Source of the DNA: an uncultured Desulfobacteraceae bacterium
GTDB lineage: Bacteria; Desulfobacterota; Desulfobacteria; Desulfobacterales; Desulfatirhabdiaceae
Length of the DNA: 42,034 nt
Reading direction: 5' to 3'
Assembly: GCA_903839535.1 (NCBI GenBank)
Contig: CAIMCT010000263.1
Span: 1 to 42,034, forward strand
Shown: one piece after another, positions 40,232 to 42,034 of the stretch
Layout: the number at the start of each line of letters is the position of its first letter
How positions within the stretch are numbered: position 1 is the first letter of the stretch
Notes under the pieces: generated by a model
What the model saw: only the letters and a program-made list of their open reading frames with translations
What the model was told of the DNA's origin: nothing
The model's database searches: none
Program-made: the position numbers and the translations under genes

Positions 40232-41005
40232 TCATAATTCACAATTCATAATTCCTTCATACTGGACTTCAACCAGAAAAAGCCCATGAGCCGGCGCAGT
40301 CGCGCCGGCCAGATTTCTGTCCCCTGAGAGCAAAATGCGCTCCATATCTGCAGAAGGCCTTTTCCCCATTCCGATGCGAACCAGCGTACCAACAATGTTG
40401 CGAACCATGTACCGCAGAAATCCATCGCCCTGAATGACAACCCGTAATCGGTCATTTCCATTTTTGATGATTTCCGCCAGATGAATCGTTCTGACCGTAT
40501 GTGCGCGAGGGCTTCCGATGCCCTCAAATGCTTTGAAATCATGAGTTCCAATTAGGCAACAAAGGGACTCGCTCATAGCCTTGACGTTCAGCGGTTTCTG
40601 GATGTGCCATGAAAAATGCCGTTCCACTACAGAAGATATCTGATGATTCAGGATTTGGTAATGATAAGTTTTGGCCAAAACATCATATCGTGCATGAAAG
40701 GCATCCGGTACTTCACAACAATCCCGAACGACGATGTCAATTGGAAGAAGGCCGTTTAGAGCACGCAGGAAGGTTTTAGGAGTCAACTGGGTATAACAGT
40801 GAAAACTGGCAGCCTGTCCCAGGGCATGAACCCCGGCATCCGTTCTGCCTGATCCATTCAGAATGACGGGCTGCTGGGTGACCAGGCTGAGAACCCGCTC
40901 AATTTCCGCCTGAATGGTGGGTTTTTCCACCTGGCGCTGCCAGCCGAAATATCGGGTACCGTCATATTCTATAACGAGTTTAAAGTTTCTGAACAGAGCC
41001 GGCAT
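40232..41005 (-). CDS. truA: tRNA pseudouridine(38-40) synthase
   Basis: It modifies uridines 38-40 of the tRNA anticodon arm. The 257-residue protein has the conserved start FKLVIEYDGTRYFGWQRQ and the catalytic Asp56 in GSGRTDAGVHALGQ, with two TruA repeats. GDGFLRYMVRNIVGTLV is typical. ATG 41005 was chosen because it overlaps the stop of the upstream small gene as TGATG, implying coupled translation; the GTG at 41020 would lie inside that gene. Its stop is 8 nt from the converging aminotransferase gene. Confidence 0.93.
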   Translation of the reverse strand: MPALFRNFKLVIEYDGTRYFGWQRQVEKPTIQAEIERVLSLVTQQPVILNGSGRTDAGVHALGQAASFHCYTQLTPKTFLRALNGLLPIDIVVRDCCEVPDAFHARYDVLAKTYHYQILNHQISSVVERHFSWHIQKPLNVKAMSESLCCLIGTHDFKAFEGIGSPRAHTVRTIHLAEIIKNGNDRLRVVIQGDGFLRYMVRNIVGTLVRIGMGKRPSADMERILLSGDRNLAGATAPAHGLFLVEVQYEGIMNCEL

Positions 41006-41187
41006 CACAGCCGATCGCACCTGGTGTTACCCAGTTCTTCCTCAAAAGCATCATCCATATCCTGAATAAATTTATCCAGCGAACATCTTTTGCCACAGCC
41101 CCTGCAGCTTAGAACCGCTGATCGTCATGTTTTATGCAGTACGAGTTTTTCTCCACAACTGGGACATAGCAGGTTTTCGGTTTTCAT
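41005..41187 (-). CDS. Small dual-CXXC protein with in-frame TGA: probable selenoprotein
   Basis: From ATG 41187 the frame reads MKTENLLCPSCGEKLVLHKT, then TGA at 41127-41125 (codon 21), then runs open for 39 more codons (RSAVLSCRGCGKRCSLDKFI and on, ending NTRCDRL) to a TGA at 41007-41005. Read through, the 60-residue protein has CPSC at 8-11 and CRGC at 28-31, with selenocysteine at 21 between them. From memory it fits a family of small dual-CXXC (seleno)proteins in Desulfobacterota. A hairpin with stem GCUGCAG/CUGUGGC and loop GGG begins 16 nt after the UGA, which suits a bacterial SECIS. The final TGA overlaps the truA ATG, which ties translation of this frame to truA. The alternative is a broken zinc-ribbon gene. 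Confidence 0.75.
41092..41108 (-). promoter_or_regulatory. Candidate bacterial SECIS hairpin
   Basis: On the mRNA strand GCUGCAG, GGG, CUGUGGC forms a 7-bp stem (two G-U pairs) with a GGG loop. The loop lies 23 nt after the in-frame UGA, within the usual 16-37 nt range, and starts with G as bacterial SECIS loops do. It is inside the coding sequence, as expected in bacteria. Confidence 0.55.
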
Positions 41188-41859: not shown

Positions 41860-42034
41860 TATACTGCAAACGGGCATAATCTTGCATTTTTGAACCCTCA
41901 CCCCACCCCCTAACCCCCTCCCGCAAGGGGAGGGGGGACTTTCACACTCTTAATCCCTTTCCGCAAGGGGAGGGCGGGAGTTTGGACATTTACTCCCCCT
42001 CCCCTTGCGGGAGGGGGTCGGGGGGTGGGGGTGG
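41860..42034. repeat. Copy H of the dispersed element, expanded and cut by the window end
   Basis: The left end TATACTGCAAACGGGCATAA is intact. The core is longer than in other copies: the CT-rich segment at about 41900-41937 (ACCCCCTCCCGCAAGGGGAG) returns as its complement at about 41994-42034, giving a large inverted repeat around a third CCGCAAGGGGAGGG unit. The right end lies beyond the window. Confidence 0.6.

Follow-up and report, generated by a model that had tools for sequence, protein, structure and literature searches.

The minus-strand reading frame from position 41187 to 41005 almost certainly encodes a small selenoprotein of the NF041197 family, judging from its sequence and from comparison with related genomes. 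The window analysed here is the whole 42,034-nucleotide stretch from an uncultured Desulfobacteraceae bacterium. Proteins of this kind are already catalogued as selenoproteins, and what is new is this unannotated member; since the family is known, the finding is sound yet ordinary. It adds a gene to that family in uncultured Desulfobacteraceae, and it is a fair example of a gene missed by simple gene callers. On a small scale it also shows clearly how a signal in the RNA can restrict the sequence of a protein, with a bacterial SECIS (bSECIS) element lying within the second CXXC motif.

Read with TGA as selenocysteine (Sec, U), the frame yields MKTENLLCPSCGEKLVLHKTURSAVLSCRGCGKRCSLDKFIQDMDDAFEEELGNTRCDRL, 60 residues followed by a TGA stop at 41007-41005. 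CXXC motifs occupy residues 8-11 and 28-31, and the single in-frame TGA (41125-41127, codon 21) falls between them. An earlier note on this DNA had proposed this frame, its motifs and its TGA, leaving the strand unstated; translation from 41187 to 41005 confirms all three and places them on the minus strand. The note had also held that standard calling would hide the gene, and the mechanical list of open reading frames for the region indeed contains a 20-residue piece before the TGA and out-of-frame ORFs, nothing else. Upstream on the same strand, and outside the selenoprotein, lies a gene for an FmdB-type zinc ribbon (PF09723; 41276-41770). Downstream is truA (TIGR00071; 40232-41005, minus strand), whose ATG at 41005-41003 overlaps the selenoprotein stop as TGATG, the overlap that had been noticed earlier; alternatively, truA may begin at a GTG at 41020.

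Family membership is clear from the full-length match. With the TGA read through, the protein reaches 70.6 bits against the NCBIfam model NF041197, named "dual CXXC motif small (seleno)protein" (CxxC_Se_CxxC), whose cut-off is 40, and covers positions 1-53 of 53; each of the 46 aligned relatives matches this model too. The dual-CXXC (seleno)protein family that the earlier note had invoked is a real one, with a curated model. In a 2026 review (PMC13188914), NF041197 figures among the prokaryotic selenoproteins already known, under the name hypothetical protein OS_HP3 and with the motif RxU; the review credits OS_HP3 to work published in 2007 on the Olavius algarvensis symbiont. The protein described here shares with OS_HP3/NF041197 the pair of CXXC motifs, a fixed column between them that holds Sec or Cys, a C-terminal CDR(L/I) and the full-length match. 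It differs in having K-T-U rather than RxU at the Sec residue, which is variation at the sequence level only, and nothing marks it as a variant within NF041197.

The same review places a GxU form, hypothetical protein DW, under the NF041197 model as well. DW resembles the present protein in its two CXXC motifs with U between them and, in most cases, in a similarly placed hairpin; it differs in its CGGxAxIxGRU motif, its other C-terminus and a score below the NF041197 cut-off. Among the homologues that we collected is a sister group of dual-CXXC proteins (L083-L095 and L099-L101, for example L083:1506-1685) with the motif CGGxAxIxGRU and an in-frame TGA, all below the cut-off and often sharing a genome with a full-scoring NF041197 copy. 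On our reading of the motif, these proteins would fit DW, and the group may deserve a model of its own. Three further below-cut-off homologues (L096, L097 and L098) carry TGA at the Sec column and have a linker after the second CXXC that is one residue longer, while their C-termini are still CDR(L/I/V). In L098 the UGA is followed by a very long and stable hairpin (-31.2 kcal/mol, z -6.9).

The frame is widely conserved, on both sides of the TGA. A homologue is present in 47 of 57 related genomes. The best matches in 46 of these (E<0.005) each have exactly one internal TGA, and the 47th (genome G025, E 0.007) is partial and has further stops. Named relatives found by a genus-level alignment search are uncultured Desulfobacteraceae and Deltaproteobacteria MAGs; a search of viral contigs found no homologue of the 60-residue protein. 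Across the 46 aligned members C8, C11, U/C21, C28 and C31 are invariant. Every congener compared (six to seven) has TGA at codon 21 in a frame with no other stop. Downstream of the TGA, changes among seven congeners number 134, 124 and 311 at the first, second and third codon positions, so that the third position dominates, and dN is smaller than dS in each congener comparison with an estimable dS. These patterns show that selection on the protein persists beyond the TGA.

These observations bear directly on the reading in which the TGA is the true stop of a decayed pseudogene, or an assembly error. In its favour, a standard ORF list shows only the 20-residue fragment. The same TGA in all congeners within an otherwise stop-free frame, the low dN relative to dS after it, the retention of one TGA by relatives across the order and the covariation of the hairpin described below all argue against it, leaving it highly improbable and in practice refuted as far as the compared genomes can speak. 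A sequencing error, which the earlier note had named as a possible undoing of its proposal, is likewise excluded for practical purposes because all congeners keep the TGA.

What stands at codon 21 in other genomes points to Sec specifically. The Sec column is U or C in all 60 loci read out, and codon 21 of relatives is TGA in Sec-type homologues and a Cys codon in others, never a codon for another residue, which supports the selenoprotein reading first put forward in the note. In a phylum-wide sample of 395 genomes, 112 matched NF041197, and the best-scoring matches were stop-free and carried Cys. In a tree of the 46 members the Sec and Cys forms cluster, and the label changes three times on the best tree; most forks are open because the alignment has 56 columns, and the well-supported branches also allow a single Sec/Cys change. 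A single genome (G092) encodes an NF041197 protein of the Sec type together with a second relative of the Cys type (L102 on C26 and L070 on C87).

The genome also encodes the machinery for Sec insertion. A search for selA, selB, selC and selD, proposed earlier as a check, recovered all four: a tRNA-Sec (77.2 bits) with anticodon TCA (UCA in the RNA), SelA (600 bits), SelB (371 bits) and SelD, the set expected of a bacterium with selenoprotein genes. Two full-length selD genes are present (L080, G000 C184:12497-13417; L081, C397:1031-1954), and since each has one in-frame TGA, both SelD proteins are probably selenoproteins themselves. In the phylum sample SelB occurs in 110 of the 112 NF041197 carriers, the two exceptions being genomes that are 67% and 76% complete; this is consistent with Sec decoding and not discriminating, because 353 of the 395 genomes have SelB anyway.

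Could the UGA instead be read as an ordinary amino acid, through a suppressor tRNA or a changed code? Any code that treats TGA as sense would leave the frame open. Yet the same gene also terminates in TGA, tRNA-Sec(UCA), SelA, SelB and SelD are all present, and relatives without U have Cys in its place, the substitution that Sec would predict, and not Trp or Arg. The SECIS hairpin, moreover, is kept only in TGA members and is largely lost from Cys members. We regard an ordinary-residue decoding as having next to no probability. Under the selenoprotein reading, the UGA at codon 21 would be decoded by SelB with Sec-tRNA(UCA), directed by a bSECIS hairpin just downstream.

This hairpin, GCUGCAG-GGG-CUGUGGC, spans 41108 to 41092 on the minus strand, or nucleotides 20-36 when numbering starts at the U of the UGA, and is written in the codons of C28-R-G-C31-G. 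The stem of 7 bp begins 16 nt past the UGA, and the 3-nt apical loop GGG (41101-41099) starts 23 nt downstream of it, so the stem and loop described in the earlier note are both present. In the bSECIS model of PMC13188914, a loop of 3-9 nt caps a stem of 4-16 bp and lies 16-37 nt after the UGA, with a G required within the first two loop positions; the hairpin of this gene agrees with that model in loop, stem and distance. On its own its folding is unremarkable. Single-sequence folding gives z=+0.61 for 44 nt and z=-1.56 for 53 nt, and its -6.5 kcal/mol is average by itself against a mean of -6.4 in synonymous-codon resamplings. Because its own folding is not significant, the hairpin convinces only by comparison among relatives. 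Searches with Rfam gave weak matches on the region, all below gathering scores, and SECIS_1 had no match in the genome; that result is uninformative, since the controls were unmatched too.

Comparison across relatives supplies the support for a SECIS element. We aligned 38 Sec members without gaps from the UGA and scored nucleotides 20-26 against 30-36. Pairing was found in 93.6% of cells versus 85.7% in shuffles, and both sides had changed in 20 cells versus 3.7 in shuffles. None of 500 shuffles equalled the observed pairing or double-change value, and controls in which the stem was slid along the alignment were only 27-55% paired; the shuffles ignore kinship, and the slid controls account for relatedness. 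The first loop base (G27) is invariant in all 38 members. The second CXXC contains two TGC codons that can partly pair with each other, so a synonymous-codon control was needed as well. In this control the mean z was -1.78 among the Sec members, -1.38 among those of DW type and -0.22 among the Cys members, which have mostly lost the outer pairs of the hairpin. Both states occur within genus g97, where L073 has Sec with the hairpin and L065 has Cys without it. The second CXXC differs accordingly in its inner residues, being mostly C-R/K-x-C in Sec members and C-P-x-C, C-T-G-C and similar in Cys members. As the hairpin is written in these codons, the RNA constrains the residues between the cysteines.

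Most likely the gene product is a small zinc ribbon, in which the Sec would be exposed. An AlphaFold model predicts strands at residues 14-19 and 24-28, a short strand at 34-36 and a helix at 37-52, with low confidence (mean pLDDT 66, pTM 0.42), and with so weak a structural model fold and role are read conditionally here. In the model, residue 21 would sit in the turn that joins the two leading beta strands, ahead of the helix and the CDR(L/I) end, and the four cysteines of both CXXC motifs would hold a metal. A Foldseek search of the PDB gave no significant match, the best being the zinc-finger protein ZifS (E 0.055), and profile searches gave weak matches to YfgJ-like, HypA and Trm112 ribbons. 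With such small zinc ribbons (YfgJ/2jne, Trm112, HypA and ZifS) the protein would share CXXC knuckles and a beta hairpin; it differs in that sequence matches to them are weak and part-length and their entries, as tabulated, show no Sec. Exposed and replaceable by Cys, the Sec would be the reactive residue, and the C-terminal Cys, which is often conserved, could be its resolving partner. The most likely role is that of a thiol/selenol redox or metal-handling adaptor, and the redox role taken by itself is a tentative assignment that we hold at somewhat below even confidence.

Gene neighbours vary among lineages and do not settle a role. In the scanned neighbours of Sec members, truA is the next gene downstream in 14 of 29 and lies within ~1.5 kb in others, an auxin-efflux-type carrier is next downstream in 8 of 29, and ArgJ is upstream in 9 of 33, mostly divergent. 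Cys forms ending in IIYD are preceded by pyrE (12 of 12 scanned), and several Cys forms have an HI0933-like FAD protein nearby. The setting between fmdB and truA, which the earlier note had named as a supporting sign if seen in orthologues, holds here on both flanks; truA is the more widely shared of the two, and fmdB was found beside the gene in this genus only, for which reason we rejected fmdB as a functional partner.

In a different role the protein would resemble Trm112, serving as a zinc-ribbon adaptor for enzymes that modify RNA or proteins, with its Sec regulating or gripping the partner. Archaeal Trm112 (6zxw_H) is a weak profile match (E 0.0018) and shares the top VIA-align score (Z 3.8 over 41 residues at 2.3 A), the archaeal Trm112 model NF038101 is weakly matched by 2 of the 46 members, and the frequent neighbour truA encodes a tRNA pseudouridine synthase. 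Against this, the Z score is below 4 and tied with ribosomal and RNA-polymerase zinc ribbons, other ribbons do equally well or better by profile, Pfam Trm112 has no match to the 60-residue protein at E up to 1, and the Cys lineages lie beside pyrE or near the FAD protein instead. We consider the Trm112-like role unlikely and favour the redox or metal-handling adaptor.

In four congeners the start codon of truA overlaps the selenoprotein stop (TGATG), and this arrangement in the sequence suggests translational coupling of the two genes. Because of the overlap, readthrough of the Sec codon could gate truA translation, a speculation to which we give only a slight chance of being correct. If it were true, ribosomes would stop at codon 21 when selenium is low and less TruA would be made, tying tRNA pseudouridylation to selenium supply.

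Beyond the fmdB-type gene, positions 41880-42034 at the contig end hold intergenic C-rich and G-rich repeats, inverted copies among them (CCCTCCCGCAAGGGGAGGG-like), and these repeats may have broken the assembly.
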